Assembly (NCBI GenBank): GCA_026874595.1 | Contig: CM049317.1 | Span: forward strand, 33,757,901-33,821,900 | Source of the DNA: Sipunculus nudus | Taxonomy: Eukaryota > Annelida > Sipuncula > Golfingiida > Sipunculidae | Length of the DNA stretch: 64,000 nt | Direction of reading: 5' to 3' | Shown: piece after piece, positions 24,060 through 63,700 of the stretch | Layout of the letters: every line of letters begins with the position of its first letter | Numbering within the stretch: the stretch's first letter is position 1 | Translations under genes and position numbers: made by a program | Notes under the pieces: model-generated | What the model saw: the letters and a program-made list of their open reading frames with translations, nothing else | Databases searched by the model: none | What the model was told of the DNA's origin: nothing

Positions 24060-25960
24060 ATATTAGCTTGGATGTCTGCAGCATAAACGTGAATGTAGGT
24101 GGTGCCACCTGTCATAAAATCGAGAAAATTGTCCAGGATGTATAAACCTGCAAAATTTCAGGTGGATAAGTCAAACCACTGCTGAGATATGACTGATTTT
24201 ACCCCAAGACAGATGAACAGATGGACGGTGTTCATAAGTGGTTGCAGGTGGCGCAACCAGTTTTGCTTTTGATGAAGAGCTTTGCGAGATCTATACACAT
24301 GCAAAATTTTCGACCAATTGGTCAAACGGTTCCCGAGATATCAGCTTGGATGCCTGCAAAGTAAACGTGAATGTAGGTGGCGCCACCTGTCATAAAATCA
24401 AGACAGCTGTCCAGGATGTATAAACCTGCAAAATTTCAGGTGGATAAGTCAAACCACTTCTGAAATATGAGTAATTTTATCCCATGGCAGACAAACAGAT
24501 GGACGCTGTGCATAAGTGGTTGCAGGTGGCGCCACCAGTTTTCCAAATGATGAAGAGCTATGTGAGATCTATACACATGCAAAATTTTGCCCAATCGGTC
24601 AAACGGTTCCCGAGATATGGTCATGGATGTCTACAGAGTAAACATGAATGTAGGTGGCACCAACTGTCATAAAATCAAGAAAGCTGTCCAGGATGTATAA
24701 ACCTGCAAAATTTCAGGTGGATAAGTCCAACCACTGCTGAGATATGAGTGATTTTATCCCAAAGCAGATGAACAGATGGACGCTGTGCATAAATGGTTGC
24801 AGGTGGTGCCACCAGTTTTCCCAATGATGAAGAGTTATATGAGATCTATACACATGCAAAATTTTTGCCCAATCAGTCGAACCGTTCCTGAGATATGAGC
24901 TTGGATGTCTGCAGAGTAAACATGAATGTAGGTGGCACCACCTGTCATAAAATCGAGAAAGCTGTCCAGGATGTATAAACCTGCAAAATTTCAGGTGGAT
25001 AAGTCAAACCACTGTTAAGAAATGAGTGATTTTATCCCAAGGCATATGAACAGATGGACGCTGTGCATAAATAGTTGCAGGTGGTGCCACCAGTTTTGCC
25101 TATGATGAAGAGCTTTGCGAGATCTATACACATGCAAAATTCTGGCCAAATCGGTCAAACGGTTCCCGAGATATGAGCTTGGATGTCTGCAGAGTAAACC
25201 TGAATGTAGGTGGCGCCACCTGTCATAAAATCAAGAAAGCTGTCCAGGATGTATAAACCTGCAAAATTTCAGGTGGATAAGTCCAACCACTGCTGAGATA
25301 TGAGTGATTTTATCCCAAGGCAGAATAACAGATGGGTGGTGTGCATTAATGGTTGCAGGTGGCGCCACCAGTTTTGCCTATGATAAAGAGCTATGTGAGA
25401 TCTATACACATGCAAAATTTTTTGCCCAATGGGTCAAACGGTTCCCGAAATATGAGCTTGGATGTCTGCAGAGTAAACATGACTGTAGGTGGGGCCACCT
25501 GTAATAAATCGAGAAACCTGTCCAGGATGTATAAACCTGCAAAATTTCAGGTGGATAAGTCCAACCACTGCTGAGATATGAGTGATTTTATCCCAAGGCA
25601 GAATAACAGATGGGTGCTGTGCATTAATGGTTGCAGGTGGCGCCACCAGTTTTGCCTATGATGAAGAACTATGTGAAATCTATACACATGCAAAATTTTG
25701 GCCCAATAGGTTAAACGGTTCCTGAGATATGAGCTTGGATGTCTGCAGAGTAAACCTGAATGTATGTGGCGCCACCTGTCATAAAATCGAGAAAGCTGTC
25801 CAGGATGTATAAACCTGCAAAATTTCAGGTGGATAAGTCAAACCACTGCTGAGATATGAGTGATATTATCCCAAGGCAGATGAACAGAAGGATGCTGTGT
25901 AAAAATGGTTGCAGGTGGTGCCACCATTTTAAGTGTATGTTATAAAGCTATCAAAAGGCT
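24060..25960 (+). repeat. tandem core of C1: about seven units of ~278 bp with paired GGTGGCGCCACC palindromes
   Basis: Each unit has two palindromes in fixed contexts. One is TGTAGGTGGCGCCACCTGTC, the other TTGCAGGTGGCGCCACCAGT. The first context recurs near 24097, 24375, 24655, 24931, 25207, 25487 and 25763, giving intervals of 276-280 bp. The second lies about 145-150 bp after each first, leaving about 130 bp to the next. Most variants alter the central CG to TG or CA. The period is not a multiple of three and frames break in each unit, so it is not coding. Confidence 0.9.
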
Positions 25961-26204
25961 ACATTTGTGCAAAATTTTTAGCCTGATCGGTCAAACGGTT
26001 CCAGAGATATGCGGGTTTATGTGTGGAAACAGACGCACAAATGGAGGCTGGGCAGTGAGGAAAGGTCAGAGGTCAACCAAAAATGAGGGCGTTGCAGTTA
26101 AAATGGGACTTGATGATAAACCCAATTCGCTTAAAATGCAAACCAAGTCTTTTCAAACAGTTGAAAGATATAGTTCCAATTATCTGGGAATTCTGCATCT
26201 AAAC

Positions 26205-26266
26205 ATTGTCTAGACGTCTAGACGCTGTGTCTAGACGTCTAGACACATTGTCTAGACACCCCCCAG
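26205..26266. repeat. cluster of TCTAGACGTCTAGA palindromes
   Basis: GTCTAGACGTCTAGAC occurs twice, separated by GCTGT, with a further GTCTAGAC just after. Each 16-mer is a perfect palindrome built from TCTAGA and ACGT. The homologous place in C2 (about 38630-38680) keeps only degraded forms. Confidence 0.85.
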
Positions 26267-27662
26267 AGTCAGGTCAGTTGCCATGGTGATGTCTAGACCC
26301 CACCTGTTTGTACTGAGTGACCTTTTGACTTGGCTTCTGAAACTCAGTCTGTTTTCAAATACAGAAAGCCTTTTTCAATTGGCTACAATGCTTTTTTTAA
26401 ACTGTATTTACCCAATCTATTCTTATAAAACTGGCAGAACCCTACCATAGAATAATTCTTTTTAAGTTTAAACCGATCAGCTTAACAGTTTAATCATAAA
26501 TCAGTGTATGAGCTAGAAGAGTTTAAAATTACATTTTTGCTTGTAAAAAACACATCAATGTAGGTGGCGCCACCAATACCTCAAAATAAGATATGACATA
26601 TGTGAAAAACATTGGTATAAAATTTGGTGTTTATAGCTCTAGCCGTTTCTGAGATTTTAATTTTAGTGTGCTTTTTTGGAAAGATGACTAAGTTCAACCT
26701 CCTGTAACTCGGCCAAAAATCTTCAAACTGGAACCATTCGAACAAACTTGAGAGAGATTGTTCCAGGGATCATTTCTGTGAAATATAGGACAATCTGGCA
26801 GGACAGTTTTGGAGGAGAAGATTTTTAAAGCTTTTTTAGCTTTTTCCCTATAAAATCTAAGAAAATGCAGTAAGAAAAAATATAAACAAAATTGGATATA
26901 GTTTTTTGGATGACTGATTATTTGCAAAAACTTTGGTGATGCTAGCTCCTGCCGTTTTTGAGGTAGCTATGGTTAACATACAGACGACGCATGACGTACG
27001 ACGCACGACACACGACGCCACACCATTGCATAAGCTTACAGGTTCGCTAAAAACAGTGTTTGTTGTATACATAAATAACAATCACTGGCTAATAATTGCT
27101 CAGGTGCCTGGCATTAACCATAAAACGAAATTGGCTCAAAGACAAAGTTAAAATCAAGATCTCAGGTCAGACAACCTTCTAGATAACCTCTGGCTTAGTG
27201 ATATGACATTTCTGTGGCTAGGCAACTCAATTATTTGAACAACTAAGGGAGTATGGATTCTCATTTATAATCTAATAACTAAATAAAACTGAAGTGGATT
27301 AAATTTCACTGAATTTCAATTTTAAATCATATAGGAAAGCTGACAATCTTGGCATACTCTGTCTATGAAATCATGTTTGGAAACTGTCACAAGATATAAC
27401 ATACACATATGCAATTGACTGAAAATAAGTTTGACGATTCTGTTTCAAAACCTTCTCTTATCAACACAGTTAAACTGTATTTGTATCTTCTAAGCTTGTG
27501 TTCTACGTAAAAAAAAATCCAAGAAATTTGGTAATATTGATCTGGATCTTTATTGTTGTATATGAAAAAAAAGTATGCTTTCCTTTAAATTTCTGGGGAT
27601 ACATGCGACCAGAGTTTCCATCTTTAATTTATCTGTAATTGAAATCACAAACAGCAACTTAC

Positions 27663-27719
27663 ATGAGCTCTGTAGAGCATACAGTCCCACCCCTTCACAG
27701 TCTAAAAACATACCAGATT
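27663..27719 (-). CDS. SMYD5: SMYD5 exon: SET-domain strand before NHSC
   Basis: A 57-bp microexon (two bases, 18 codons, one base) between a TTTCAG acceptor and a GTAAGT donor. It codes SGMFLDCEGVGLYALQSS, and the last split codon completes Cys. The -GxGLYALQSSC- followed by NHSC of the next exon is continuous SET sequence. Its small size and fitting phases on both sides make it a confident call despite its length. Confidence 0.9.
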
Positions 27720-31022: not shown

Positions 31023-31030
31023 CTAATACA

Positions 31031-37307: not shown

Positions 37308-39513
37308 AACAAGGCCTACAGGCCTAATGCGAACCTGTGCAAAGTTTAGGAGTATGAATGGAGGTTTATTTTTAAAATTTAATATTGATCCTCCTAAGTC
37401 CTGCATATCTACCTTAGTCAATATGATTTCAGCAAAATGGACGTTTCTGACCTGCAAGTTTCGGACTAGGACATTTTAAAACCAGAATATGGGTAGTCGA
37501 CAAGCCACTATGTGTATCTGCAGAAATCAGAGTGGGATGGGTGAAGTGAGGCATGGATTAAGTGACAAGGGGAATAGAGCTTGGTGTGTTGCATATTAGC
37601 ATGGATGTCTGCAGCTTAAATGTGAATGTAGGTGGTGCCACCTGTCATAAAATCGAGAAAATTGTCCAGGATGTATAAACCTGCAAAATTTCAGGTGGAT
37701 AAGTCAAACCACTGCCGAGATATGAGTGATTTTATCCCAAAGCAGATCAACAGATGGATGCTGTGCATAAGTGGTTGCAGGTGGCGCCACCAGTTTTGCC
37801 TATAATGAAGTGCTATGTGAGATCTATACACATGCAAAATTTTGGCCTAATCGGTCAAACGGTTCCCAAGATATGAGCTTGGATGTCTGCAGAGTAAATG
37901 TGAATGTAGGTGGCGACACCTGTCACAAAATCAAGAAAGCTGTCAATGATGTAAAATACCTGCAAAATTTCAGGTGGATAAGTCAAACCACTGCTGAGAT
38001 ATGAGTGATTTTATCCAAAGGCAGGTGAACAGATGGACGCTGTGCATAAGTGGTTGCAGGTGGCACCACCAGTTTTGCCTATGATAAAGAGCTATGTAAG
38101 ATCTATACACATGCAAAATTTTGGCCCAATCGGTCAAACGGTTCCCGAGATATGAGCTTAGATGTCTACAGAGTAAATGTGAATGTAGGTGGCGCCACCT
38201 GTCATAAAATCGAGAAAGCTGTCCAGGATGTATAAACCTGCAAAATTTCAGGTGGATAAGTCAAATCACTGCTGAGATATGAGTAATATTATCCCAAGGC
38301 AGATGAACAGATGGACGCTGTGCAAAATTGGTTGAAGGTGGTGCCACCATTTTTAGTGTATGTTATAAAGCTATCAAAGGGCTACATTTGTGCAAAATTT
38401 TTAGCCTGATCGGTCAAACTGTTCCAGAGATATGTGGGTTTATGTGTGGAAACAGACGCACAAATGGACACTGGGCAGCAAGGAAAGGTAAGAGGTCAAC
38501 CAAAAATGAAGGCGCAGCAATTCACATGTGACCTGATGATAAACCCGATTCGCTTAAAATGCAAACCAAGTTTTTCAAACAGTTGAAAGATATAGTTCCA
38601 ATAATCTGGGAATTCTGCATCTAAACATTGGGTCCAGACATCTAGACGCTGTGTCTAGAGGTCTAGACACATTGTTTAGACACCCCCCCCCCCCCAGGCC
38701 AGGTCAGTTGCCATGGTGATGTCTGGACCCCACCTGTTTGTACTGAGTGACCTCTTGACTTGGCTGCATGAAGTCAAATCTGTACTCAAATACAGAAAGC
38801 CTTTCTCAAATGGCTACAATGTTTTTTTCAAACTGTATTTACCCAATCTATTCTTATAAAACTGGCAGAACCCTACCATAGAATAATTCTTGTAAAGTTT
38901 AAACCAATCAGCTGAACAGTTTCATCATAAATCAGTGTATAAGCTAGAAGAGTTTAAAATTACATTTTTGCTTGTAAAAAACACATCAATGTAGGTGGTG
39001 CCAACAATACCTCAAAATTAGATATGACATATGTGACAAATAAAATTTGATCATTATATCTCTAGCCTTTTCTGTGACATATAAAATTTGGTCATTATAT
39101 CTCTAGCCTTTTCTGAGATTTTAATTTTAGTGTGCTTTTTTGGACAGATGACTAAGTTCAACCTCCTGTAACTCGGCCAAAAATCTCCGAACTGGAACCA
39201 TTTGAACAAACTTGAGAGAGATTGTTCCAGGAATAATTTCTGTGAAATATTGGACAATTTGGCTGGACAGTTTCAGAGAAGAAGATTTTTAAAGGTTTTT
39301 AAGCTTTTTCCCTATAAAATCTAAGAAAATGCAGTTAGCCAAAAAATAAGCAAAATCTGATGGAGTTTTTTAGATGACTAATTTTTTGCATAAAATTTGG
39401 TGATGCTAACTCTTGCTGTTTTCAAGATAGTATGGGTTAACGTACAGACGACGGACACCGGGCGGATGCCGGACGATGCCACACCATCGCATAAGCTCAC
39501 AGGTTCGCTAAAA
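37308..39513 (+). mobile_element. element C2, palindrome-array type
   Basis: Left end AACAAGGCCTACAGGCCTAA with GCGAACCTGTG at 37329-37339. Right end CACAGGTTCGC at 39498-39508 then TAAAAA, a perfect 11-bp inverted pair. The core has about three 278-bp units (palindromes near 37630, 37780, 37910, 38060, 38190 and 38336). The 3' spacer and TCTAGAC cluster follow as in C1. It is shorter than C1 by about four units, as expected from unit loss or gain. Confidence 0.78.
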
Positions 39514-42058
39514 ATATATATATATATTTAATAATATAAATTATACAAAAAAATAGATTCAATTGAACAAATGTGTAAACTACTGAAATGTCAACAGTTA
39601 ATCAAAAAGCCAACTGATGATAATGGTAATGGTACAGATCATTTGTTCACAAACTGCTCACATGCTTCAGTTTCTACATTAGGAAACACATGGTCAGGTC
39701 ACAAAATATTATTTGCAACAATTTCTTGCTCATCAATACAAACCAATCATATAATCCCACCATGGCCTTTATTACCTCTTCCTCTTACACTTTATCTCCA
39801 TTTGATATTATTTTAGATTTTTACCTTCAAGGTCAACCAGCTGAGCACAGTGACCCATGGGTCCCTTGTTTAGATGACTAATTTTATGCATAAAATTTCG
39901 TGATGCTAATTCTTGCCTTTTCAAGATAGTATGGGTTTACGTACAGACGACGGCGTCCCCACATCATCGCATAAACTCACAGGTTTGCTAAAAAATTGAG
40001 GTTTTTCCTTAATTTCTCAAAGTAACTAAGTCGCAAAGACCCAGTTTTCAGCTTGGTAGGAGATCTTGGGGTCATTTAACATTATGCCGAATTTTGGATT
40101 CCTAGGTCTTACGGTTTCAAAACATGCCACATCTAGGACGGACGGATGACGGACAATGGACCACGACTTTAGCTCAGATGACTTATAGTCAGCTGAGCTA
40201 AAAAATAAGCTGAATACCACAACATTTGACATGTGACAGATTATTGCATAAAATTTGGGGATGGTAGCTCCTGCCATTCCTGAGAAATTATGGGTTAATG
40301 TACATATGACCAATGACCCCGTACAAAAAAAGGTCAATGCAGATGGCGCCACCAATACCTGAATTTCATATATGACTCATGTGACTAAAACACTTGCAAA
40401 AAATTTGGTGATGATAGCTCCGGCCATTTCTGAGACTGTCATTTTAGTATGCTTTTTTGACAGATGACTAAGTTCAACTTCCTCTAACTCGGCCAAAATT
40501 CAGCGAACTTGAACCATTCAAACAAACTTGAGAGAGATTGTATAAAAGATTATTTCTGAGAAATATTGAACAATTTGGCTTTACCATTTTGGAGGAGAAG
40601 ATTTTTAAAGGTTTTTTACCTTTTTCTCTATAAAATCTAAGAAAATGCAGAATTTTTCAGATGGCTAATTTTTTGCATTAAATTTCATGATGCTAGCTCC
40701 AGTCGTTTTTAAAATAGTTTGGGTTAACGTACAGACGGCGGACGCCGCCACACCATGGCATTAGCTCACAGGTTTGCTAAAAATTACTACAGATGCATAT
40801 TGAATGCAAAATTATTATACAGATACATCTCACTGATGGCAGAATCTTGATTTAAGTTGAGTATGGATAACTATTATTTATAATCCATGTACAGCCGTCT
40901 TTATATACCCAAAGAGAGCTGTATACCTGTGATTGTAAACATTGCCTGGCATGAGGAATATCTAAAATCATAAATCTACACTTTTTAAAAGCTTTTAAAA
41001 AACATTCTTGTCAATATTAACCATAGATAACCTGAAATCTAAATGTCTAGAGGTATGATGTAATGGATGCTGATAAACAGGTGCCAGGCTAGATGTATCT
41101 GCTTCACACAGCTTACATATAAGGTAAAATGACTCAATTCAGCCAAAATTCATTCTTTGGAACCATAAAAGACAATTATTATAAGAGTTATTCAGGGGAT
41201 TATTCTTGTAAAATATTAAACAAATATGCCTCAGTGGCCTCAGTCAAAAACGTTTTACAGGTTTATAACTCATATGGGAAATTAAAGCAAAATGGCTAAG
41301 TTAAGCTTCTCATAACTCAGCCAAAAATCACTGAACCAAAACCATTTGAACAAACTTGAATTATCAACATCTAAGGATAATTAATGTGTGAGATTTAAGA
41401 ATTTGGCCCAGTGGTTTTTGAGAAGAAGATCTTTGTAGCCATTTAAAAGAAGTTTTTTGTAGCCGTCAGTATCATATGGGCACTGATGACCCCTGCTGAA
41501 AAAAAGGCTAAAACAGGTGGCGCCACCATTACCTCAATTTCGGGTATGACTCATGTGACCAACATTGGCATAAAATTTGGTGATGATAGCTCAAGGTGTT
41601 TCTGGGATTGTAATTTTAGTATGCTTTTTTGGATAGATGACTAAGTTCAACTTCCTGTAACTCAGCCAAAAACCACCTACCTTAAACCATTCAAACAAAC
41701 GTGAGAAAGATTGTTCCAGGAATCATTTCTGTGAAATATTGGACAATTTGGCTGAACGGTTTTGGAGAAGAAGATTTTTAAAGCTTTTTTAGCTTTTTCC
41801 CAATAAAATCTAAGAAAATGCAGTTAGCCAAAAAATAAGCAAAATCCCATAGAGTTTTTAGATGACTAATTTTTTGCATAAATTTTGTGAGGCTTACTCT
41901 TACCATTTTCAAGATAGTATGGGTTAACGTACAGACACCGGACACCGGAGGCCAGAAGACGCCACACCATCGAATAAGCTCACAGGTTCGCTAAAAATCA
42001 AGAGGGTGCCACCAGTCTGCAGGAACTTATGAAACACTCCATGACCAACATGCATGTA
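39514..42058. repeat. patchwork of element fragments
   Basis: In order: a short unique or inverted A-type segment ending in an inverted 5' terminus (39837-39872); a second C-type 3' end at 39873-39990; an A-type 3' end with hairpin 40170-40200; two more C-type 3' segments ending with CACAGGTTTGCTAAAAA (about 40770) and CACAGGTTCGCTAAAAA (about 41996); and a short piece of the AGTCTGCAGGAA array (about 42000-42058). The repeated C-type 3' ends without matching 5' ends suggest tandem dimers or truncated nested copies. Confidence 0.55.
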
Positions 42059-45000
42059 AACAAGTGACCCATGGGTCATGACGCTCAGCTGACTGGGAAG
42101 AGATTCACAAAAGGAAATTTTATCATCAGAATGGTAGATACCCATTCAACTGAAGCATCAAACAGATTAACTAACAGGCCAAGATTTAGTCTGTATTTAT
42201 ATATCTGAAAAATAGAGAAAAAATGTGTAAACTTTAAAAACTAGAATACGGGTAGCCGACAAGTGACTACGTGTATCTGCCAAAATCAGAGTGAAGTGAG
42301 GCATGGATTGAGTGGCAAGGGGAAACAGAGTGAGGTATGTTGCATATTAGCATGGATGTCTGCAGCCTAAATGTGTATGTAGGTTGTGCAACCTACCACA
42401 AATCCAGAAAGCTGTCCAAGTTGTATACATATGCAAAATTTTAGGCAGAAAAGTCAAACCACTGATATGAGTGATTTTAGCCCACGGCAGACAAACAGAC
42501 AGACGCTGTGCAAAAATGGTTGCAGTTTTGTGTATGATAAAGACCTATGTGAGATCTAAACACAAGCACAATTTTGGCCCAATCGGTCAAATGGTTCCTG
42601 AGATATTAGCTTGGATGTGTGCAGCATTAACAAGAATGTAGGTGGCGCCACCTGTCATAAAATCAAGAAAGCTATCCAGGATGTATAAACCTGCAAAATT
42701 TTAGGCAGTTATGTCAAACCACTACAGAGAAATGAGTGATTTTAGGCCACGGCAGACCAACAGACAGACGCTGTGCAAAATGTGCAAAAATGGTTGCAGG
42801 TGGCCCCTCCAGTTTTGTGTATGATAAAGACCTATATGAGATCTATACACATGCAAAATTTTGGCCCAATCGTTCAAACGGTTCCCAAGATATGAGCTTG
42901 GATGTCTGCAGCATAAACTAGAATAAAGGTGGCGCCACCTGTCATAAAATCAAGAAAGCTATCCAGGATGTATAAAACTGCAAAATTTTAGGCAGATATG
43001 TCAAACCACACCCAAGATGTGAGTGACATTATTGCACGGCAGACAAACAGACAGACGCTGTGCAAAAATGGTTGCAGGTGGCGCCACCAGTTTAGCGTAT
43101 GATAAAGAGCTATGTTAGATCTATATACATGCAAAATTTTGGCCCGATCGGTCAAACGGTTCCCACAATATGAGCTTGGATGTCATCAGCGTGAATGAGA
43201 ATGTAGGTGGCGCCACCTGTCATAAAATCAAGAAAGCTATCCAGGATGTATACGCATGCCGAATTTCAGGTGAATTAGTCAATTCACTGCAGAGATATGA
43301 GTGATTTTAACCAAAGGCAGATGAACAGATGGACACTGTGCAAACATGGTTACAGGTGGCGCCACCATTTTTTGTGTATGTTATAGAGCTATCCAAGGGC
43401 TACATTAGTATAAATTTTATTTCCTGATCAGTCAAACGGTTCCTGAGATATGAGCTTGGAAAGCTTATAAAATCAAGTCCCAGAGGAGCTCTCTGGAAAC
43501 GAACGCGGCAACGGCGGAGGAACCCGGTCAAAAACATAGTATCCACAAAACTTTGTTTTGGCGGGTACAAAAATACAGGTGGCTCCACCAGTCTGCAGAA
43601 ACTAATAAAAACACTTACAAACATCAATATCCATGCAAAGAATCATGGTGAACTCCCCATTAGTTGTTCAGATACTTCAGCTTTTGTATCAAATTGTCCA
43701 TTATTCTGAGGGATACTTTGGAGTCCTATAGCTTGAAGGATATGGGTAACAGAGACCTAAGTTTCCACAGGCACTTTTCATGGGTCTTCTTGCACGACAA
43801 GAATGAAGATTCTAGGTCCAGTTGTTGCGATTTGTACCCTGTTGACATATAACCACATCTTTAAAGGTATCAAAAAAAGAGAAAAAAAATCGTTAAAATT
43901 TGAAAAAAATAGAGGTGGCGCACCCAGTCTGCAGAAACTGATGGAACAGGTCATGATCAATATGTATGCCGAATATCATGACCATCAGTGTTGTAGTTAT
44001 TGAGATACTGCAGTTTTTGTATCAAATTTTCCATTATTCTGGGGGGTAATTTGGAGCCATACAGCTTAAAGAATATGGGTAACAGAGACCTAATTTCAGG
44101 TTTCCATGGAGACTTTTCATGGGTCTCCCTGTGTGTCAAGAATGAAGATTCTAGGTCCAGTTTTAATGATTTGTGCCCTGTTAACAGATGTTCATAACTT
44201 TAAAGGTCTCAAAAATAGAGAAAAATATCGTAAAAAAACCCGAACAAATACAGGTGGTGCCACCAGTCTGCAGAAACTGATGAAACACTCCATGATCAAT
44301 ATCCATGAAAACAATTATGGTGATCTCTGCATTAGTTGTTCAGATACTTCAGCTTTTGTATCAAATTTTCAATTATTCTGAGCTGTACTTTGGAGTGCCA
44401 TAGCTCAAAGGATATGGGTAACAGAGACCTAATTTCAGGAATCCATGGAGACTTATCATGGGTCTCCCTGTGTGTCAACAATGAAGATTCTAGGTCCAGT
44501 CCTTACGATTTGTACCCTGTTGACAGATAACTACATCCTGAAAGGTCTCGAAAATAGAGATAAAAAATTGTGAAAATTTGAAAAAATACAGGTGGCACCA
44601 CCAGTCTGCAGGTACTGATGAAACACCTCTTGATCAATATGTATGACAAAAATCATGACCATCAGTGTTGTAGTTATTGAGATGTTGCAGTTTGTTTTTA
44701 TCAAATTTTCCATTATTCTGGGGGGTTATTGGGAGCCCCCCATAGCTCAAAGGATATGGGTAACAGAGACCTTATTTCAGGTTTCCATGCAGACTTTTTA
44801 TGGACCTCTCAGTGTGTCAAGAATGAAGATTCTAGGTCCAGTCTTTATGATTTGTGCCCTGTTAACAGCTGTTCACATTTTTAAATTCGTAAAAAATCGA
44901 AAAATCCAGGTGGCGCCACCAGTCTGCAGGAAGTGATGGAACATCTCATGATCAATACGTATGCCAAAAATCATGACCATCAGTTAAGTAGTTAATGAGA

Positions 45001-45935
45001 TATTGAAGTTTTTGTATGAAATTTTTGACTTTTCTGGGGGGTACTTTGGGGCCCCATAGCTCGAAGGATATGGGTAACAGAGATCTAATTTATGGTTTCC
45101 ACGGAGACTCTTAATAGGTTTCTCAGTGTGTCGAGAATGAAGATTCTAGGTCCAGCGGTTACGATTTGTGCCATGTTAACAGATGACAGCATCTTTAACC
45201 GTCTCAAAAATAGAGGAAAAAATTGTAAAAAAATCGAAAAATACAGATGGCGCCACCAGTCTGCAGGAACTTATGGAACATCTCATGATCAATATGTATG
45301 CCAAAAATCATGACCATCAGTGTTGTAGTTATTGAGATATTGAAGCTTTTGTATGAAATTTTTTACTATTCTGGGGGGTACTTTGGGGCCCCATAGCTCG
45401 AAGGATATGGGTAACAGAGACCTAATTTCTGGTTTCCAAGGAGATTTTTCATGGACCTCTCAGTGTATCAAGAATTAAGATTCTAGGTCTAGGCTTTACG
45501 ATTTGTGCCTTGTTAATAGATGTTCACATTTTTAAAGGTCTCAAAAATAGAGAAAAAAATTTGTAAAAAATCGAAAAATACAGGTGGCGCCACCAGTCTG
45601 CAGGAAATGATGGAACATCTCATGATCAATATGTATGCCAAAAATCATGACCATCAGTCAAGTAGTTAATGAGATATTGAAGTTTTTGTATGAAATTTTT
45701 GACTTTTCTGGGGGGTACTTTGGGGCCCCATAGCTCGAAGGATATGGGTAACAGAGACCTAATTTCTGGTTTCCAAGGAGATTTTTCATGGACCTCTCAG
45801 AATCCCAAGTTACAAAGTTCTAGGTTCAGCGGTTACGATTTGTGCCTGGTTAACGGACGGACAGACGGACAGACGGACGACGTACAAAGAGTGATCGCTA
45901 TAGCTCAGATGACTTTCAGTCAGCTGAGCTAAAAA
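42059..45935 (+). mobile_element. composite element D, first unit with 5' end
   Basis: It begins AACAAGTGACCCATGGGTCA then TGACGCTCAGCTG. Parts in order: a 5' arm (to about 42240); a C-like array of ~280-bp palindrome units (about 42360-43400); a different array of ~340-bp units (about 43560-45830); an ACGGACAG run (45855-45885); a hairpin (45901-45931); and CTAAAAA. Perfect palindromes lie at 42641-42652, 42928-42939, 43078-43089, 43206-43217 and 43355-43366. No coding potential was seen. The two array types in one element make it a mosaic of otherwise separate families. Confidence 0.72.
43560..45830 (+). repeat. tandem array of ~340-bp units (AGTCTGCAGGAA type), first copy
   Basis: Seven units are recognised by GGTGG-N-CCACC followed by AGTCTGCAG, near 43574, 43914, 44255, 44591, 44910, 45250 and 45592. 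Each also has CATAGCTCGAAGGATATGGG, TAACAGAGACCTAATTT, GAAGATTCTAGGTCCAG and GATTTGTGCCCTGTTAACAG. The last unit runs into the ACGG run. Similarity between neighbouring units varies, and the last three units are closest to one another. Confidence 0.9.
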
Positions 45936-48900
45936 CTAGAATACGGGTAGCCGACAAGTGACTACGTGTATCTGCCAAAATCAGAGTGGAACGGGTGAAG
46001 TGAGGCATGGATTGAGTGGCAAGGGGAAACAGAGTGAGGTATGTTGCATATTAGCATGGATGTCTGCAGCCTAAATGTGTATGTAGGTTGTGCAACCTAC
46101 CACAAATCCAGAAAGCTGTCCAACTTGTATACATATGCAAAATTTTAGGCAGAAAAGTCAAACCACTACATGGATATGAGTGATTTTAGCCCACGGCAGA
46201 CAAACAGACAGACGCTGTGCAAAAATGGTTGCAGTTTTGTGTATGATAAAGACCTATGTGAGATCTAAACACAAGCACAATTTTGGCCCAATCGGTCAAA
46301 TGGTTCCTGAGATATTAGCTTGGATGTGTGCAGCGTTAACTAGAATGTAGGTGGTGCCACCTGTCATAAAATCAAGAAAGCTATCCAGGATGTATAAACC
46401 TGCAAAATTTTAGGCAGTTATGTCAAACCACTACAGAGAAATGAGTGATTTTAGGCCACGGCAGACAAACAGACAGACGCTGTGCAAAATGTGCAAAAAT
46501 GGTTGCAGGTGGCCCCTCCAGTTTTGTGTATGATAAAGACCATGTGAGATCTATACACATGCAAAATTTTGGCCCAATCTTTCAAACAGTTCCCGAGATA
46601 TGAGCTTGGATGTCTGCAGCATAAACTGGAATAAAGGTGGCGCCACCTGTCATAAAATCAAGAAAGCTATCCAGGATGTATAAAACTGCAAAATTTTAGG
46701 CAGATATGTCAAACCACTGCCAAGATGTGAGTGACTTTATTGCACGGCAGACAAACAGACAGACGCTGTGCAAAAATGGTTGCAGGTGGTGCCACCAGTT
46801 TTGCGTATGATAAAAAGCTATGTTAGATCTATACACATACAAAATTTTGGCCCCGGATCGGTCAAACGGTTCCCGAGATATGAGCTTGGATGTCATCAGC
46901 GTGAACGTTAATGTAGGTGGTGCCACCTGTCATAAAATCAAGAAAGCTATCCAGGATGTATAAAACTGCAAAATTTCAGGTAAATTAGTCAATTCACTGC
47001 AGAGATATGAGTGTTTTAACCAAAGGCAGATGAACAGATGGACACTGTGCAAACATGGTTACAGGTGGCGCCACCATTTTTTGTATATGTTATAGAGCTA
47101 TCCAAAGGCTACATTAGTATAAATTTTATTTCCTGATCAGTCAAACGGTTCCCGAGTTATGAGCTTGGAAAGCTCATAAAATCAAGTCCCAGAGGAGCTC
47201 TCTGGAAACTAACGCGGCAACGGCGGAGGAACCCGGTCAAAAACATAGTATCCACAAACTTCGTTTTGGCGGGTACAAAAATACAGGTGGCTCCACCAGT
47301 CTGCAGAAACTAATAAAAACACTTACAAACATCAATATCCATGCAAAGAATCATGGTGATCTCCCCATTAGTTGTTCAGATACTTCAGCTTTTGTATCAA
47401 ATTGTCCATTATTCTGAGGGATACGTCGGAGTCCTATAGCTTGAAGGATATGGGTAACAGAGACCTAATTTTAAGTTTCCACAGGCACTTTTCATGTGCC
47501 TCCTTGCATGACAAGAATGAAGATTCTAGGTCCAGTTGTTGCGATTTGTACCCTGTTGACAGATAACCACATCTTTAAAGGTATCAAAAAAAGAGAAAAA
47601 AATCGTAAAAATTTGAAAAAAATAGAGGTGGCACACCCAGTCTGCAGAAACTGATGGAACAGGTCATGATCAATATGTATGCGGAAAATCATGACCATCA
47701 GTGTTGTAGTTATTGAGATACTGCAGTTTTTGTATCAAATTTTCCATTATTCTGGGGGGTAATTTGGAGCCATACAGCTTAAAGAATATGGGTAACAGAG
47801 ACCTAATTTCAGGTTTCCATGGAGACTTCTCATGGGTCTCCCTGTGTGTCAAGAATGAAGATTCTAGGTCCAGTTTTAATGATTTGTGCCCTGTTAACAG
47901 ATGTTCATAACTTTAAAGGTCTCAAAAATAGAGAAAAAATTCGTAAAAAAACCCGAACAAATACAGGTGGTGCCACCAGTCTGCAGAAACTGATGAAACA
48001 CTCCATGATCAATATCCATGAAAACAATTATGGTGATCTCTGCATTAGTTGTTCAGATACTTCAGCTTTTGTATCAAATTTTCCATTATCCTGAGCTGTA
48101 CTTTGGAGTGCCATAGCTCAAAGGATATGGGTAACAGAGACCTAATTTCAGGTGTCCATGGAGACTTATCATGGGTCTGTGTGTCAACAATGAAGATTCA
48201 AGGTCCAGTCCTTACGATTTGTACCCTGTTGACAGATAACTACATCCTGAAAGGTCTCAAAAATAGAGAAAAAAAAATTGTGAAAATTTGAAAAAATACA
48301 GGTGGCACCACTAGTCTGCAGGTACTGATGAAACACCTCTTGATCAATATGTATGCCAAAAATCATGACCATCAGTGTTGTAGTTATTGAGATGTTGAAG
48401 TTTGTTTTTATCAAATTTTCCATTATTCTGGGGGGTTATTGGGAGCCCCCCATAGCTCAAAGGATATGGGTAACAGAGACCTTATTTCAGGTTTCCATGC
48501 AGACTTTTTATGGACCTCACAGTGTGTCAAGAATGAAGATTCTAGGTCCAGTCTTTATGATTTGTGCCCTGTTAACAGCTGTTCACATTTTTAAATTCGT
48601 AAAAAATCGAAAAATTCAGGTGGCGCCACCATTCTGCAGGAAGTGATGGAACATCTCATGATCAGTACGTATGCCAAAAATCATGACCATCAGTCATGTA
48701 GTTAATGAGATATTGAAGTTTTTGTATGAAATTTTTGACTTTTCTGGGGGGTACTTTGGGGCCCCATAGCTCGAAGGATATGGGTAACAGAGATCTAATT
48801 TATGGTTTCCATGGAGACTTTTAATAGGTTTCTCAGTGTGAGGAGAATGAAGATTCTAGGTCCAGCGGTTACGATTTGTGCCACGTTAACAGATGACACA

Positions 48901-49645
48901 TCTTTAAACGTCTCAAAAATAGAGGAAAAAATTGTAAAAAAATCAAAAAAATATAGGTGGCGCCACCAGTCTGCAGGAACTTATGGAACATCTCATGATC
49001 AATATGTATGCCAAAAATCATGACCATCAGTGTTGTAGTTATTGAGATATTGAAGTTTTTGTATGAAATTTTTTATTATTCTGGGGGGTACTTTGGGGCC
49101 CCATAGCTCGAAGGATATGGGTAACAGAGACCTAATTTCTGGTTTCCAAGGAGATTTTTCATGGACCTCTAAGTGTATCAAGAATTAAGATTCTAGGTCT
49201 AGGCTTTACGGTTTGTGCCTTGTTAACAGATGTTCACATTTTTAAAGGTCTCAAAAATAGAGAAAAAAATTTGTAAAAAATCGAAAAATACAGGTGGCGC
49301 CACCAGTCTGCAGGAAGTGATGGAACATCTCATGATCAATATGTATGCCAAAAATCATGACCAGCAGTCAAGTAGTTAATGAGATATTGAAGTTTTTGTA
49401 TGAAATTTTTGACTTTTCTGGGGGGTACTTTGGGGCCCCATAGCTCGAAGGATATGGGTAACAGAGACCTAATTTCTGGTTTCCAAAGAGATTTTTCATG
49501 GACCTCTAAGAATCCCAAGTTACAAGGTTCTAGGTTCAGCGGTTACGATTTGTGCCTGGTTAACGGACGGACAGACGGACAGACGGACGACAGACAAAGA
49601 GTGATCGCTATAGCTCAGATGACTTTCAGTCAGCTGAGCTAAAAA
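45936..49645 (+). mobile_element. composite element D, second unit (tandem duplicate without 5' end)
   Basis: It starts directly after the CTAAAAA end of the first unit with CTAGAATACGGGTAGCCGAC, the sequence found at 42241. It then repeats the whole order of parts to a second hairpin (49611-49641) and CTAAAAA. The offset between copies is about 3.7 kb (3695 at the left, 3710 at the right). Differences are scattered single bases and small gaps. The 5' arm (42059-42240) is not duplicated. Confidence 0.85.
47270..49540 (+). repeat. tandem array of ~340-bp units, second copy
   Basis: Seven units with palindrome-like joints near 47285, 47630, 47968, 48301, 48621, 48958 and 49296. They correspond one-to-one with those of the first copy. 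The unit order is preserved, so the whole block was copied and the array was not re-expanded. Confidence 0.88.
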
Positions 49646-50966: not shown

Positions 50967-53900
50967 AACAAGTGACCCATGGGTCATGACGCTCAGCTGC
51001 CAAGCATGACCTGCGACATCATGGGCTGTGATTCACAACTAGTAAAATTGTTGCAGAACCTATATGCCTATTTAGTTTAAACTTTCTACATTGCCATAAA
51101 TTCTTATCATATATGTCTGGTTAAAACATAGTGAACTAGATATTTCTTGGCACTGCAGGTGCCAGAGTATCCCCAGACATAGTAGGGCCCCCCTTTAAGA
51201 ATAGGCCCCCATTTGTAGCAGCATATACTGACACTTGGCAAGCAATTATTTTTTTTCCATCTATCAATCCACAATCTTTTTGAAGATGTTGGTCCTGTGA
51301 CCTTGACCTTTGACCTCATGACCCAAAAATCAATTGGGGTCTTGCTTTTTCAATGGGACATATATAAGAAAAGTTTGAAATCTATACATCAATAAAAGCA
51401 GGAATTATCATCCAGAAACTAATTTTTGAACAGATGGCTCCTGTGGCCTTGACCTTTGACCTTGTGACCCCAAAATTGATATTGATCATCCACTTTTATA
51501 TATAAATCAATAGCGGTCTAGATTTATTGATGGGCCATATATAAGTCAGGTTTGAAATCCATATATTAATCCAAGCTTAAAAATCATCTCAGGAAATAAT
51601 TTTTGGACAGATGGCTCATGTGACTTTCACCTTTGACCTTGTGACCTCACAATTGACAGGCGTCTTCCTCTATTGGCAGGGGAACTGTATGTGCAAGATG
51701 AAATGTCTGAGATGAAATGTTTGGCTGAAAATGCATCCACATCTTTTTGAAGATGTGTCCTGTGACCTTGACCTTTGACCTCATGATCCCAAAATCAATT
51801 CGGGTCTTGCTTTTCCAATGGGACATATACAAGTCAAGTTTGAAATCCATACATCAATAAAAGCAGGCATTATCATCCAGAAACTAATTTTTGGACAGAT
51901 GGCTCCTGTGACCTTCACCTTTGACCTTGTGACCTCAAAATTGATAGGGGTCTTCCACTCTTGGCAGGTGATCTATATGTGCAAGATGAAAGATCTAAGA
52001 TGAATTGTTTGGCTGAAAATGCATCCACAATCTTTTTAAAGATGTGTCCTGTGACCTTGACCTTTGACCTCATGACCCCAAAATCAATTCAGGTCTTGCT
52101 TTTCCAATGGGTCATATACAAGTCAAGTTTGAAATCCATACATCAATAAAAGCAGGAATTATCATCCAGAAACTAATTTTTGGACAGATGGCTCCTGTGA
52201 CCTTCACCTTTGACCTTGTGACCTCAAAATTGATAGGGGTCTTCCTCTATTGGCAGATGAACTATATGAGCAAGATGAAAGGTCTTAGATGAAATGTTTG
52301 GCTGAAAATGCATCCACAATCTTTTTAAAGATGTGTCCTGTGACCTTGACCTTTGACCTCATGACCCCAAAATTTATTGGGGTCTTGCTTTTTCAATGGG
52401 ACATATATAAGTCAAGTTTGAAATCAATACATCAATAAAAGCAGGAATTATCATCCAGTAACTAATTTTTGACATAAAGCCTGTGGCTTTGACCTTTGTT
52501 CTTGTGACCCCAAAATTGATATGGATCATCCACTATTGGCAAGTGAGCTATTTATTCAAGATGGAAGACCTTGAAAGTTTGGCTTAAAATGCATCCACAG
52601 TATCTTGTAAGATGCAAGTCCAGTGACCTTGACCTTAGACCTCATGACCCTAGTACCTATAGGGTTCTTACTTTAGTAGTGGGCCATACATAAGTCACGT
52701 TTGAAATCCATATGGCTTTCAACACTGGAGATATCATAAGAGGTGTGTGATTTTAACCAAATATGGACACATTAAAGGTCAAGGCCACTGTCATGGTAAA
52801 GGTCATGACCCAAATGTAAACAGACCTCATCCCATAGCCCATCTCTCTGCATGTGCATAATATGAAAGAAATCTGTCCATTAGTTTTTGACTTATAATGC
52901 TTACAGTACTGTCAAGTGGCAATTATGGGGGTATTAAAAGGCGTAATAATAAGAAAAGGATAATAGGTGGCGCCACCAGTTTCCGGTATATCACAAGGCT
53001 ATCCAAGATCTTCGGTCACCTTAATTTTTAGACCAGTCCATGCAAGCTTACTTGAGATATTTAAGAATTTGTGTTATTTTCAGCAATAATGGACCTATTC
53101 AAGGTCAAGGTCATTCTCCTAGCATAGGTCATGACCCCATTTTAAATAGGCTTCGTCCCCTTACCTATATCTATACAAATGTAAAGTTTGAAAAAAATCA
53201 GTGAAATATTTTTTGAGTTATCCCACTCACAAGGTTTTTCTGTGGCGGCGGCGGGACCGTCATGAAACCATAGTATCCCGACTTTGTCTGGGGATACAAT
53301 GATGGTCTGAGGCAAAATGTATGGTTGTTGAGCTATCAGGAACTAATCCCACAGCTTGCTCGATACCTGTCAGTCTCAAAAGGAATACCACACAGGCCAC
53401 ATTTAAGATCAAAATATAGCAAAAGATTAAGGAAATCCATGCAAGAATTATTGTGAAACGGGTGCTTCCATATTAATTTTTATTCAATACAAGCCAACTG
53501 TACTGAGCTTTCATAAATGATGGTCATATTTATTAAGAAATCTTTGACCCAATGCAAGATAACATTAATATACATCCCACTGCATTCACTTTAATAGTTC
53601 TTGAGATTATATGTTCTAAAGGAATTTAAAGATGGCTTCCTGGTGGCCATATTGGATTTCTGACAGGTCGGAAATTGAACAACAAACATCCTCTAAAAGG
53701 GACCAAACATCATAAAAAAATCACAGAAACTGCCCTGGCAAAAGGATTTCTAAAAATGGCTACCTGGCAGACATAATGGTTTTCTGACAAGTCTGACATT
53801 TGATATCACACATCCTCCAATAAGACACTAAACTTGTAGCAATGCTTCAAAGAATGTAACAGTTATGAATGTCCAAAACAATTCAAAAGGCATGTTCAGG

Positions 53901-59073: not shown

Positions 59074-60361
59074 TAAATGGACTATTTTTACGCAATGTTT
59101 CAAGGGACTGTGCCGCTACATGAATGATGCTAATTTCACTACAGTATAACACTACTGTACATGTTGGTCATTCTACCTGGAGCAGAAAAACACCAGGCTA
59201 ACGTCTTAAGACAATCCCATGCTGTGTGTGGAGTTATAAACAAACTTCAAATGACATAATCACAGATTCAGTGAACTGAGTGTTATAAAATCACATCACA
59301 AGCCGCAATTAATCATTTTGGAGGCTGGCGGAAAACCAACAGCCTGTAAAGTCAAAATTACCTCCACTTCATGAGCCTGTAGAGCAGCCATCAGTAGCTA
59401 AGGTTTCAGACTGGCCCCAGCCCTGGTGCCAAGGAAACCAAAACTGGGATCAATTTGACTGGTGAGTTCCCAGCTATTAAAAGTTAAGTGCAGCACATGA
59501 AGCTAGCCCCTGATCTTAGTGTGGTGGATTCACAACCAGGTGTACATGGGTCTATGCTCCATAAGCAGTGCTTATGCTTTTCTCAACTATTCGCTACACT
59601 AAGTGCTGCATAAAACCGTGGTTGCCTGTCAAGTTTGGCCACCAGGCGCTGCTCTCTCTGGGGGATTCCCCCTGTATAATATTTAACCAATCACATTGCA
59701 GGTATGACCAGCACAATCAGATGTTGTTTGAGGTGCCTGGTGATTAGCACTGCGGTAGAATGTGCTTGGTAGAACAGATATTTTCCACTGCCCATTGGAA
59801 TACACACGATGCAATCATCACCTTCAAGACAGTCTCTACACTAACTTGCATGTTTGGCCTGAGGTCAGTTATCCCTCACTGTTCGCATATTTCCTCTCTT
59901 GCAGTGCTGAATTAGTTTTGCATGGATGCAGCCATGTAAGTATACATGCTTAGCCAATCAAATTTCTTTTAACTTTTCAGAAACTTCACACACTTAGCCA
60001 ATCAGATTTGAGCTTTTCCAGCAAAAACTGACAGGGTGCTTGGCATCTTGCCAAACCTTCTATTTCTCCCAGCGTGTGAGTGGAAAGTCAACGGGAGATC
60101 ATATGCTGTGTTCAGAGTGTAACGTGGGACCATCAAACATATATTTTACAACCTGTTTCCAGTACATAGTAACCTATTTGAGGCTTTGGGTTAGAACTGA
60201 TGAGACTGGCTGTGTTACTGATAGTGACATTTTGATGAATACGTATACTGCTCAAATATGTAGAATTTTGCAAAGGGGCACTTATCCATTCCCTGTACAA
60301 GTCATAATAGAACACCTATTGTATTTGACATTAGAAGCAAACATGGTTGTGTTTTATTAGC
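59074..60361. other. SMYD5 upstream region, no exon recognised
   Basis: Contains a possible tRNA-like scrap near 59735-59765 (TGGTGATTAGCACTGCGGTAG) and an unsupported 106-codon plus-strand frame at 60040-60360. No SMYD5 exon was recognised. Confidence 0.4.
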
Positions 60362-60770
60362 TGTTACGGGGTGACATAAAAGCGGACCCAACTGTCTCGC
60401 TAGTGAAGCTGGTTTTCTAGCGAAGCGGTTGGTACGCCGGACTTGTGCGCCACCGACCTGAGTTCGTTCCCGGATCGGCCCAGGATTTTCTCCTCATTTA
60501 TTTGTCTTCATAACAAAATGGGGGCTTGTTTGACATGACAGTTAACTTTGTGGCCAAGGGAATAAGCTCACCAAAGTGTGACTCCTGGGATAATTAGTCT
60601 TGTTCTGATAGCAGCACGCTCTTAAGAGGGGGTGTGTTACGGGGTGACATAAAAGCTGACCCAACTGAAGCAGCTGGTTCGCGGGACTTGTACGCCACCG
60701 ACCAGGGTTCGAAACTGGGATCAGCCCAGGATTTTCCCCTCTGGCTCATTTATTTGTCTTCATAACATAG
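60362..60770 (+). repeat. two tRNA-like SINE copies in tandem
   Basis: GTTACGGGGTGACATAAAAG with CGGACCCAACTG at about 60363 recurs near 60638, about 275 bp later. Each copy has an A-box-like part (TAGCGAAGCGGTTGGTACGC, or AAGCAGCTGGTTCGCGGG). Each then has GGACTTGT-CGCCACCGACC, a B-box-like part (GAGTTCGTTCCC, or GGGTTCGAAACTG), CAGCCCAGGATTTTC and CATTTATTTGTCTTCATAAC. Internal promoter boxes in the right order suggest a tRNA-derived SINE. Confidence 0.6.
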
Positions 60771-60773
60771 CTA

Positions 60774-63700
60774 AACAAGGGACCCATGGGTCACGGCGCT
60801 CAGCTGTTATATATGATAAAAAAATATGATTTAGAAATGAGGCACATGCTTGTTTTGTGTGGAAATAAATATAAGCTGTATTATGAGTTATGAGTTGTGG
60901 GTGTTTAGCTTATGTATGATTTTGATAGTATCTTTGAAGACAGGGAAGAGGATTGATTTCATTTATTTTATTAACAAATGGAGTGCTATTGTCACACATA
61001 TTTTGACTTGGCCATATAACTTATAAGCAGAACATATAATATAAGAGTTTAACTATTTATTAAAAATAATTACAAATTGTCCCAAATATAATTTTTATTA
61101 AAAATAATAAAAGAATCTATGATTTTTTAAAATAAAATACAACTGAAATGATTTTTAGAATAATATTAAAGAATATATTCATGAATACATTTTGAAAGTA
61201 TTTGCACTGGTATTCATATACTTTCATTTTTACCTGAATTACCAATCTTATGCAAGAAATTTTATAATGGAGTAAATATTCATATTCGTATTCAAATACA
61301 TTTGCAAAGTATTCACACCATGTCTGGTATTTATTCAGTTTTCACCAAACAATGATGTTGAGAATCCAGAATATACATAATTCACACATTTAAATAATGA
61401 TCATAAATACCTGGTTTTATGGCTTTTATTCATATTAAAAAAAATAAATGTAATATATTCATTTTGGACTAATTTCACATCAATGTACACACTAGACACA
61501 GCAGGAATCTAGATTAATATTATCAACTGCATCTTTGTCTGTCACTAATTTCCTTCATATGATCCCTAATGATTAGTAATGAGTAATATGACTTATTTTT
61601 TTATCATTAAAATTGAACTGAAAAATACCATTGGTGACTGCATGGTGTTATTTGGAATACGTGACATTCTATCAATTGATACAAGATTCTTATATCATCG
61701 GTAACTGCAAGTTAATTTCCTGTTATTATCAACTAACAAATTCCTTTTCCATTTTTCTTTAATTTTTTATTAAAAACCAATAAAAATTTACTAATTTATT
61801 GTTTATTGTTATGTTGTTAGTTAAAACTACTAGATGAGTTGGGTTGGACACCTGGATCAACTGTGGCTAGCCATAAGCTGCCTGGCTGCCCCAGTGTATG
61901 CCTCGCGTCAAGCGTGCATAATTTGATGAAAGGTCAACAAGGTCAACATACAGGTGACTCAAGAGGGGCTTGGGAGAGCTAAGGTCTGACATGGTCTCAT
62001 AAAAACATTAATAAAAGCTACAATTTTTGGCCAATTTCTTTCTAAACTAAAAAGCTGAAATCCTTATGTGTGCAAGATATGAAAATTATATCAACAGTGC
62101 TCACAGGAAACAAATGTGCCATGGTCAAAGTTGGGCAAAATTTAAGGTACTAATTTTATATTTATACTAATAACTTATAAAATTTGAAAAATTCAGAACT
62201 AATTTTGGGTATTCAATTGAATCTTGATTAAATAATGTTACATCCCTGACAAAAAACCTCTAGCTTCAGCAATCCTCTTGTTAAGGGGGTAAATATATTT
62301 CTTGATTTTTTAAAAAGTGCATTATGTTTGGGCCCATAACTTAAAACAATTACGCAATACTGACATCATTTCTGGCATGTGCCTAGCGAATGTATTGAAA
62401 AATATGTATATTATATATGATCAAAGTCAGATCATTGGTTTTGATTTTAGGCAGTCTTACAGTGTAACAATGGGTTTTTAATGGAAAAATGAAGTTTTTC
62501 ATTAATATTTCGAAGGAATTAAGTCCTAGTGATAAAATTCTCGGCATGGTAGGGGATTTTGGAGACATCTAACTGTATGCTAAATTTAAGGAACTTAGAG
62601 CTGAAGCTGGGGAGCTGAGCTCTAGCAAACTGCATAACACTAGCTTGATGTAAACTTGATGTGACATGGTGCTTGAAAACTTGAATAAAATCCACAGTTT
62701 TTGATCAACTGGTTTCAAATTTTTGGTGTTAACAGACAAATGCTAACAAAACATGCTGTGAAAATTAAATCCACAGTACTTACAGGAAAAAAACGTGCCA
62801 TGGTCAAACTTGGGCAAAATTTAAGGTACCAATTTTATATTTTTGCTAATATTTAAAAAAATTTAACAGATTTTGATCTAATTTTTGGTATACAATTAAA
62901 TTTTGACCAATTAAAGTTGTATTACTGAACTAGAATATGAGCAGAAGCTGACAAAAGCCCTCAGCCCAAAGAACAGTGTTTAGAGGTGGTAACAGTATCA
63001 AGTACTAAATATCTGTTCTCACATGGATGTATATATCTGTACATATGTCTCACTTATAAATTTAAAAAGTGAGAGGTATGTACCATGATTCACTACAATC
63101 CACCAAATGCTTCCTGATAAATAAGCTTCTAAGTTTTGTTCTATTATAAACTCTGTGATCTTGAAAAGAAGGTCAAGGTCACCCATCTTCGAACTTGACT
63201 AAGATTTTGTCAATATACATCTTCACCAAAAAAATAAAGTTCCTACGGTGAATCCTTTTAGAGATATCCCGCTCACAAGCCCAAAGTTGAAAAATCCGAT
63301 AAAAATTCATTAAAAATCAGAAATTGTAGGTGGCACCACCAAACTTGTGTAGCAGGTACAGACTATCAGTCCCAATAATCATAGTAAGTTTTGTGAAAAT
63401 CCACCAAATGGTTCCTGAGTAATAAGCATTTAAGTGTTTTTCTTTAATCAGCTCTAAAATGTAGAAAAATAGGTCAAGGTCACCGAACCTTTGAACTTGA
63501 CCGAGATTTTGTCGATATACATCTTTACCGAGGAAATAAAATTCTGACAGTGAATCCTTTTCAAGATATCCCGCTCATTAGGTAAAAGTTAACGGACGCT
63601 GGACGGAAGGACGGACAGCTTGGGTGACGACAATAGCCCATCAGCCTAAGGGCTGAGGGCTAAAAAAAGTCCCTACCTTTAACACTTTTGGTCTTAAGTG

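Follow-up and report, generated by a model that had tools for sequence, protein, structure and literature searches.

A palindrome shared by tandem repeat units of HINE-like elements in Sipunculus nudus, with CTCF as its candidate reader

The window analysed here, a 64,000-nucleotide stretch of the Sipunculus nudus genome (C12:33757901-33821900), carries many copies of a 12-bp palindrome, GGTGGCGCCACC, mostly within small transposable elements that appear HINE-like in sequence. The palindrome recurs in tandem repeat units of several types, is better conserved within these families than the sequence around it, and is common to elements with at least three different kinds of ends. These features point to a site read by a protein, tentatively the host's CTCF, and not to a joint at which arrays begin, finish and exchange their cores.

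The palindrome and its repeat units

With up to two mismatches, the palindrome occurs at 57 sites in the window (22 exact, 23 with one mismatch and 12 with two), against a mean of 0.45 and a maximum of 2 across 100 shuffles of the same sequence. Across the 1.4265 Gb and 153 contigs of the genome there are 111,729 exact sites, compared with 14 for a reversed-letter control. This bears out the recurrence reported by the first-pass annotation of the window, and all seven of the right-hand neighbours it listed are present, that at 52966 being AGTTTCCGG, and AATACCTC standing at both 26563 and 38994. The site it placed in an old element near 22431 is the two-mismatch GGTGGTACCACC at 22419, the flanks of which fit no cluster. 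The counts are not independent, because a 3.7-kb stretch containing most of one element is tandemly duplicated in the window (42235-45935 and 45930-49645, 96.7% identity).

Outside the window, the only loci chosen without regard to the motif were 20 segments of 10 kb at fixed positions on contigs C1-C7 (L009-L028). These contained 15 exact palindromes, confined to two loci, and 33 with up to two mismatches, in three loci; the reversed control gave four matches, every one with two mismatches. The site density of this sample is consistent with the whole-genome count, but is carried wholly by two loci. The ratio of observed to expected CpG is 0.63 in these 200 kb and 0.47 in the window. The other loci were either derived from the palindrome search (L001-L008, with L006-L008 left out because they overlap L005) or picked as site-rich (L029-L032).

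Unit types were defined from 112 sites in the window and the fetched loci, collected through the palindrome with up to two mismatches: A (TGTCATAAAATC), B (AGTTTTGC), E (AGTCTGCAG), F (AATACCTC), G (AAAATTGTGCAG), H (AGTTTCTGG), I (AGTCTTGT) and J (TGTCTTGT), together with D (ATTTTTAGTGTATG), which formed no cluster of its own among these sites and is represented by its window copy. Some types are small (four sites each for H and I, three for J and two for G), and an overlap between L002 and L003 means that one H and one F site are counted twice, both in this set and in the 158 sites used below, also affecting the counts given for H (4) and F (10). The flanks have diverged strongly between types, and the first-pass annotation regarded the cores as unlike one another. 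This holds only in part. The right flanks of A, B, D, I and J are clearly related in all ten pairs (z 6.5-16.1 against dinucleotide shuffles), E, F and H have weak links (best z 4.7, several pairs near zero), and G is barely related to the others (best z 3.4, with H); seven of the nine types share downstream blocks.

The shared blocks lie at fixed distances from the palindrome. The first, TGCAAAATTT, is found at +51 to +54 with 9-10 of 10 positions identical in A, B, D, I and J (five of the nine types). The second, TGAGATAT, is found at +85 to +89 with 7-8 of 8 positions matching in six of the nine (A, B, D, E, H and J; p ≤ 0.012), and is exact at +87 in E and H; neither its match in F (6/8, p 0.17) nor that in G (5/8, p 0.49) is significant. 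Among individual copies, the best match to TGAGATAT reached at least 7/8 at 116 of the 158 sites, 90 of them at +84 to +90, whereas two scrambled controls did so at 6 and 2 of the 158, with none in that interval. Hence, with at least one downstream block kept at a fixed distance in seven of the nine types, we conclude from these comparisons that the units constitute one old family with kept blocks, the palindrome first among them, F and G excepted.

In family-wise comparisons, conservation is higher at the palindrome than in the flanks. When units were picked by their masked flanks alone and then aligned in full (n = 50, 49, 36 and 10 for A, B, E and F), the identity of the non-CpG palindrome columns was 0.960, 0.927, 0.947 and 0.980, against 0.899, 0.849, 0.884 and 0.898 in the respective flanks, and only 0, 0, 2 and 0 of 39 flank windows of 12 columns were as conserved as the palindrome. 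In a second run, 0, 0, 2, 1 and 0 of 51 flank windows equalled or exceeded the palindrome in A, B, E, F and H; the 22 of 51 obtained for G, from two units, are uninformative. GGTGGCGCCACC is the majority form in types A, B, E, F, H and G (n = 54, 51, 36, 10, 4 and 2). The two CpG columns of the palindrome are 0.70-1.00 identical, and those of the flanks, six columns only, 0.55-0.62.

The conserved context extends beyond the palindrome, as a near-symmetric RYW-GGTGGCGCCACC-WRY. In the 127 sites with at most one mismatch, a table whose palindrome columns are ascertained, the flanking columns are R in 97% at -3, Y in 95% at -2, A in 99% at -1, W in 100% at +12, R in 84% at +13 and T in 91% at +14. 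Genome-wide, TRYA stands immediately before the exact palindrome 44,607 + 45,148 = 89,755 times, against 111,729 exact sites, in a count that a site flanked by TRYA on both sides would enter twice.

Four points weigh against a selected binding site. Firstly, when 20 bp were masked during alignment, the excess conservation was absent or small (in B, for example, 0.78-0.81 against 0.83-0.87 in the flanks), which is attributed to misalignment within the masked zone. Secondly, the consensus departs from the palindrome by one mismatch in both type I (GATGGCGCCACC, four sites) and type J (GGTGGCACCACC, three sites). Thirdly, as the types were collected via the palindrome, those that lost it are invisible; its retention in all types is therefore partly built in, and the comparison of conservation between types is weaker than it appears. 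Fourthly, sites were oriented by their TRYA score, turning 6 of the 158 and slightly favouring the left four columns.

The first and third of these points would also suit a palindrome with no present function, being instead a slowly changing stretch of the ancestral repeat, kept by homogenisation of the arrays, and appearing universal because units were collected by it. That explanation would also suit the fit of one scaffold to seven of the nine unit types and the mutation of many copies, with the palindrome exact in 67 of the 145 units picked by their flanks. Yet it leaves aside the excess conservation of A, B, E and F under full alignment, and of A, B, E, F and H in the second run, as well as the preservation of the TRYA context, and it is considered unlikely. 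Should the exact fraction of 67/145, which rests on a mixture of selected and unselected loci, hold throughout the genome, the 111,729 exact sites would stand for approximately 240,000 units, an extrapolation from a partly selected sample.

A role as a hairpin or cruciform was rejected, as the 12-mer folds at -1.3 kcal/mol, and 90 of 200 shuffles fold as well. Taken together, the conservation, the kept TRYA context and the negligible hairpin argue for a protein that reads the double strand, and it is probable that the palindrome is recognised by one.

Array borders and flank combinations

The first-pass annotation had proposed a different role, in which the palindrome sits at the junctions of units and serves as a joint for recombination or replication whose neighbours can be exchanged, and where arrays start, end and trade their cores. 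In a tandem array the position of the junction is a convention, and the ends of the arrays lie elsewhere. Mapped on the 278-bp dimer (149 + 129 bp) that forms the unit of the A/B arrays, two of 25 array ends are within 12 bp of a palindrome centre, where 4.5 were expected. Instead, 16 of the 25 have phases in the 240-259 bin, on the TGAGATAT block or immediately beyond it, and many of these are inherited copies of one border or of a few events. None of the 17 ends of the E arrays is within 12 bp of a palindrome centre (1.3 expected), and seven of the eight right ends are at phase 275. As A/B arrays both begin and finish at the TGAGATAT block, it is this block, rather than the palindrome, that looks like their border. 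Within the window, the arrays at 24060-26011, 37593-38434, 42344-43460 and 46048-47169 start and end approximately 90-105 bp after a B palindrome.

The free interchange of neighbours is likewise disfavoured, by the sharing of blocks and by the co-occurrence of flanks. When left and right flank types were combined across the 158 sites, their mutual information was 1.69 bits, against a mean of 0.45 and a maximum of 0.61 in 1000 permutations. The association is not strict: four of the six right types represented by at least three sites pair with between 3 and 5 left types, and of the eight left types, five pair with 2 to 4 right types. Modules have moved, since elements with two kinds of ends share the A/B module. 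The D unit also occurs in elements with two different ends, its copies being alike for about 100 bp beyond the palindrome, up to the GAGATATG block, before diverging.

Some evidence does favour a joint. Five of the 17 scored E array ends lie within 20 bp of a palindrome (2.1 expected), all of them left ends that start 8-9 bp upstream; two kinds of element end enclose A/B arrays; and several right flank types are joined to more than one left type. There is also a precedent in the phBglII400 satellite of Ruditapes philippinarum, for which PMC5139131 reports that 13 of 16 breakpoints fall in a 12-bp palindrome, the letters of which are not in its text. Nevertheless, in the sample examined the modular joint fails both on the co-occurrence of left and right flanks and on the mapped A/B and E array ends, which avoid the palindrome or accumulate at TGAGATAT. 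The palindrome as joint was therefore rejected on these array ends, and is regarded as very unlikely.

Candidate readers of the palindrome

If the palindrome is a protein docking site, sequence comparison makes the host's CTCF its most likely, albeit tentative, reader. The genome contains one clear CTCF orthologue, with eleven fingers in one open frame (C11:67037578-67038159), the best Protein Data Bank match of which is CTCF (7w1m, E 2e-109). It is 63% identical to human fingers 1-7, compared with 49% for the next listed match. At recognition positions -1, 2, 3 and 6 it is identical to the human protein in fingers 3 (TGER), 4 (ESKR) and 5 (DYKR); the residues of fingers 1, 2, 6 and 7 differ, with finger 6 keeping its Gln.

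The literature describes what these fingers read. Finger 4 reads GGC, the Gln of finger 6 reads adenine and Arg339 of finger 3 reads G (preprint PMC11275995), while finger 5 reads GG and leaves the third base free, and fingers 3 and 4 jointly recognise a CpG, even one carrying 5-methylcytosine (PMC12264921). PMC10325916 assigns a consensus A to position 6 and a key cytosine of finger 4 to position 12, a six-position spacing that the palindrome repeats. A-GGT-GGC-GCC fits on one strand, and GGT-GGC-GCC on the other too, preceded by A or T. GGNGGCG is contained in only 4 of the 4096 possible 12-bp palindromes. AGGTGGCGC is a CTCF core, and the YAGGTGGCGCC of both the common form and the TRYA-flanked genomic sites matches the CTCF core motif string YAGRKGGCRSY.

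Each repeat unit would then offer one docking site, carried by non-autonomous HINE-like elements and held by selection in those lineages that spread. On either strand, A-GGT-GGC-GCC would be contacted by CTCF fingers 6 (adenine), 5 (GGN), 4 (GGC) and 3 (G..), and the central CpG would fall at the step between fingers 4 and 3. The palindromic core would allow one CTCF to bind in either direction, though not in both simultaneously, as the two cores overlap. Spaced at 129-149 or 337 bp, arrays of these sites would create open, insulated chromatin at each landing place of the elements. The first-pass annotation had also allowed for a protein-binding site kept for the benefit of the element; the evidence favours this alternative, with the binding of CTCF, the advantage to the element and the insulation being what we infer from it.

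Several features sit awkwardly with CTCF. The upstream CCASY half of the vertebrate motif is missing, with T at -4 in 92% of sites and A/T-rich sequence beyond, and this T is contrary to the prediction for finger 7. The near-invariance of the T of GGT is not explained, the third base being free for finger 5. A two-fold symmetric site is more usual for a dimer, and CTCF does not explain a need for full symmetry. The comparison with CTCF was moreover post hoc, being chosen after the motif had been seen, and both an E2F-like TGGCGCCA and a SMAD-like GGCGCC overlap the palindrome.

Another DNA-binding protein, a dimeric one, is an appreciable possibility, if short of a likely one. It might come from the host, as an E2F, SMAD or lineage-specific zinc-finger type of factor, or be encoded by an autonomous Helentron and bind repeated sites as replication initiators bind iterons. 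Such a dimer would suit the extension of the symmetry into the flanking RYW and WRY bases, the nearly invariant T at offset 2 that finger 5 of CTCF does not read, the tandem sites within elements that have Helentron-like ends, and the clusters of other C2H2 zinc-finger frames in the genome, notably on contig C16. However, no candidate protein was identified; the outer GG/CC and the A at -1 misfit the E2F consensus; and the sites of a transposase or Rep protein would be expected near the ends of elements, whereas the palindromes are internal and variable in number. The 267 scored matches to CTCF fingers (on C16, C7, C9 and C11) are nearly all other C2H2 zinc-finger frames, many of those listed being on C16 at about 11 to 63 Mb, and perhaps represent a lineage-specific expansion of the transposon-silencing kind.

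HINE-like elements and known systems

In the HINE layout of Crassostrea gigas, as outlined in PMC7492417, a subterminal inverted repeat (subTIR) is followed by a complementary repeat, a GTCC microsatellite, a tandem array, a 3' subTIR and a palindrome. Much of this layout is present when the elements of the window, here termed T1, T2 and T3, are read on the minus strand. Their subTIRs pair at 11/12 positions in T1 (AGCGAACCTGTG/CACAGGTTCGCA), 11/12 in T2 (AGCTCAGCTGAC/GTCAGCTGAGCG) and 12/12 in T3 (AGCCCTCAGCCC/GGGCTGAGGGCT). An inverted repeat complementary to the 5' subTIR could form a stem-loop in T2 (z -3.94) and T3 (z -4.66), with none evident by eye in T1. GTCC/GTCT runs form the left-flank microsatellite of T2 and T3, and T1 has only a degenerate GTC-rich stretch. 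By sequence, a palindrome follows the 3' subTIR in T2 (TGACCCATGGGTCA) and T1 (AGGCCTGTAGGCCT), although neither exceeds shuffles in folding (z 0.42 and -0.85), and none was seen by reading in T3. By sequence, then, T2 shows every feature of the layout and T3 all but the 3' palindrome, and the elements are termed HINE-like.

T1 occupies 23786..27053 on the minus strand (its native orientation), with both ends located and read and its outer limits approximate. Its subTIR AGCGAACCTGTR is near 27037-27050, and the matching subTIR, at 23797-23808, adjoins an AGGCCT-type palindrome. Inside lies an A/B tandem array with a D unit at its right end (24060..26011), containing 14 palindromes with up to two mismatches; at 24098..24109 the motif stands in the context TGTA-GGTGGTGCCACC-TGT, with the TGAGATAT block at about +85. 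The exact palindrome of an F unit follows at 26563..26574. A second T1 element (37311..39516, minus strand) repeats this arrangement, with an A/B array at 37593-38434 and an F unit at 38994. Both T1 elements also contain a 21-bp repeat with self-complementary TCTAGA steps (26203-26257 and 38641-38680).

T2 (42056..45935, minus strand) has its ends read from sequence: the 5' end comprises the subTIR AGCTCAGCTGAC, the inverted repeat GTCATCTGAGCT and the GTCC/GTCT microsatellite, and the 3' end the subTIR GTCAGCTGAGCG (11/12) and the palindrome TGACCCATGGGTCA. It holds an A/B array with a D unit (42344..43460) and a tandem array of the 337-bp E unit (43569..45857), which ends at unit phases 328 and 275. 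The near-identical tandem copy of most of T2 (45930..49645, minus strand) contains an A/B array at 46048-47169 and an E array at 47277-49567. T3 (62956..63665, minus strand) combines AGCCCTCAGCCC subTIRs, an inverted repeat and a GTCC microsatellite with one G unit, in which the palindrome variant GGTGGCACCACC is at 63329-63340 and TGAGTAAT, by reading, at +87. Finally, the exact palindrome of an H unit (52966..52977) sits 324 bp from a fourth kind of element end, GGGGATACAATG, tentatively designated T4. With A/B units in T1 and T2, E in T2, F in T1 and G in T3, the palindrome is therefore common to elements with at least three different ends.

Other repeats accompany these elements. Tandem repeats of 143-146 and 289 bp (51530-52712, 35580-35962 and 55047-55310) carry runs such as TGACCTTGACCTTTGACCT, which we take to resemble clustered nuclear-receptor half-sites, making these a possible second case of factor sites in tandem repeats. 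A 27-bp repeat, GGAATGATACAGACAGAATTGTATCAC, is present in six near-perfect copies at 306-467. An Rfam scan of 20000-64000 of the window (E up to 1) matched only mir-297, far under its gathering score, and the idea that the arrays encode a ribozyme or belong to another RNA family was rejected.

The repeats have a bivalve appearance, and the closest known systems are the HINE/pearl elements of bivalves, such as Cg_HINE of C. gigas and DTC84 of Donax trunculus, which, according to PMC5139131 and PMC7492417, resemble the elements of the window in their subTIRs, GTCC-type microsatellite, short arrays of internal repeats and dispersal. DTC84 is described in PMC5139131 as carrying a conserved palindrome near its repeat junction, a likeness by description, without its letters. 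The difference is that here one palindrome spans unit types in elements with at least three kinds of ends, with a host factor as candidate reader. According to PMC5139131, phBglII400 shares with the arrays of the window an internally repetitive monomer, treated as two halves, and a 12-bp palindrome, and units B and I contain the BglII site AGATCT. It differs in its monomer of about 400 bp (judged from its name), compared with the 278-bp dimer found here; in the placement of the present arrays inside transposon-like elements; and in its breakpoints, which coincide with the palindrome there and not here, the palindromes being compared without their letters. Conserved palindromes thus have precedents in repeats of this kind. 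The CENP-B box of alpha satellite, mentioned in PMC5139131, is similarly a short conserved protein-binding box in diverging tandem units, a likeness in working only.

CTCF-like motifs are reported at domain borders or loop anchors in a squid and other cephalopods (PMC9023564, PMC10658181 and PMC12407938), and the CTCF motif is the commonest in the open chromatin of an annelid (PMC7854359). In the open-licence literature, judged mostly by titles, the motif string matched only a listed work on a chitinase; CTCF with Helitron, binding sites and satellite DNA returned only works that are general by title; and none of the matches listed for CTCF in mollusc or bivalve repeats was on that subject by title. 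The number of palindromes, their sharing among different ends, the scaffold of blocks, the negative result for the joint and the CTCF lead were not found described within the same extent of that literature.

HINE/pearl repeats are abundant in bivalves, and we know of no explanation for the persistence of their internal arrays. One conserved site, common to elements whose ends differ and agreeing with the portion of CTCF that this animal and humans have in identical form, makes that persistence testable. In the broadest form of the argument, which these sequences leave rather doubtful, rolling-circle transposons may have seeded the host genome with arrays of orientation-free CTCF docking sites, approximately 240,000 by extrapolation, as their own insulators. 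If so, such arrays could shape or swamp the folding of the host genome, and their palindromic cores would test the orientation rule of loop extrusion. A parallel exists in the B2 short interspersed elements (SINEs) of rodents, transposons that have spread the core motif of CTCF, and hence its sites, to many places. These belong to another class of element, whereas here the core is palindromic, is arrayed in tandem and is proposed as a CTCF site from its sequence; were the proposal correct, the elements of S. nudus would be a protostome, rolling-circle counterpart of SINE-borne CTCF sites.

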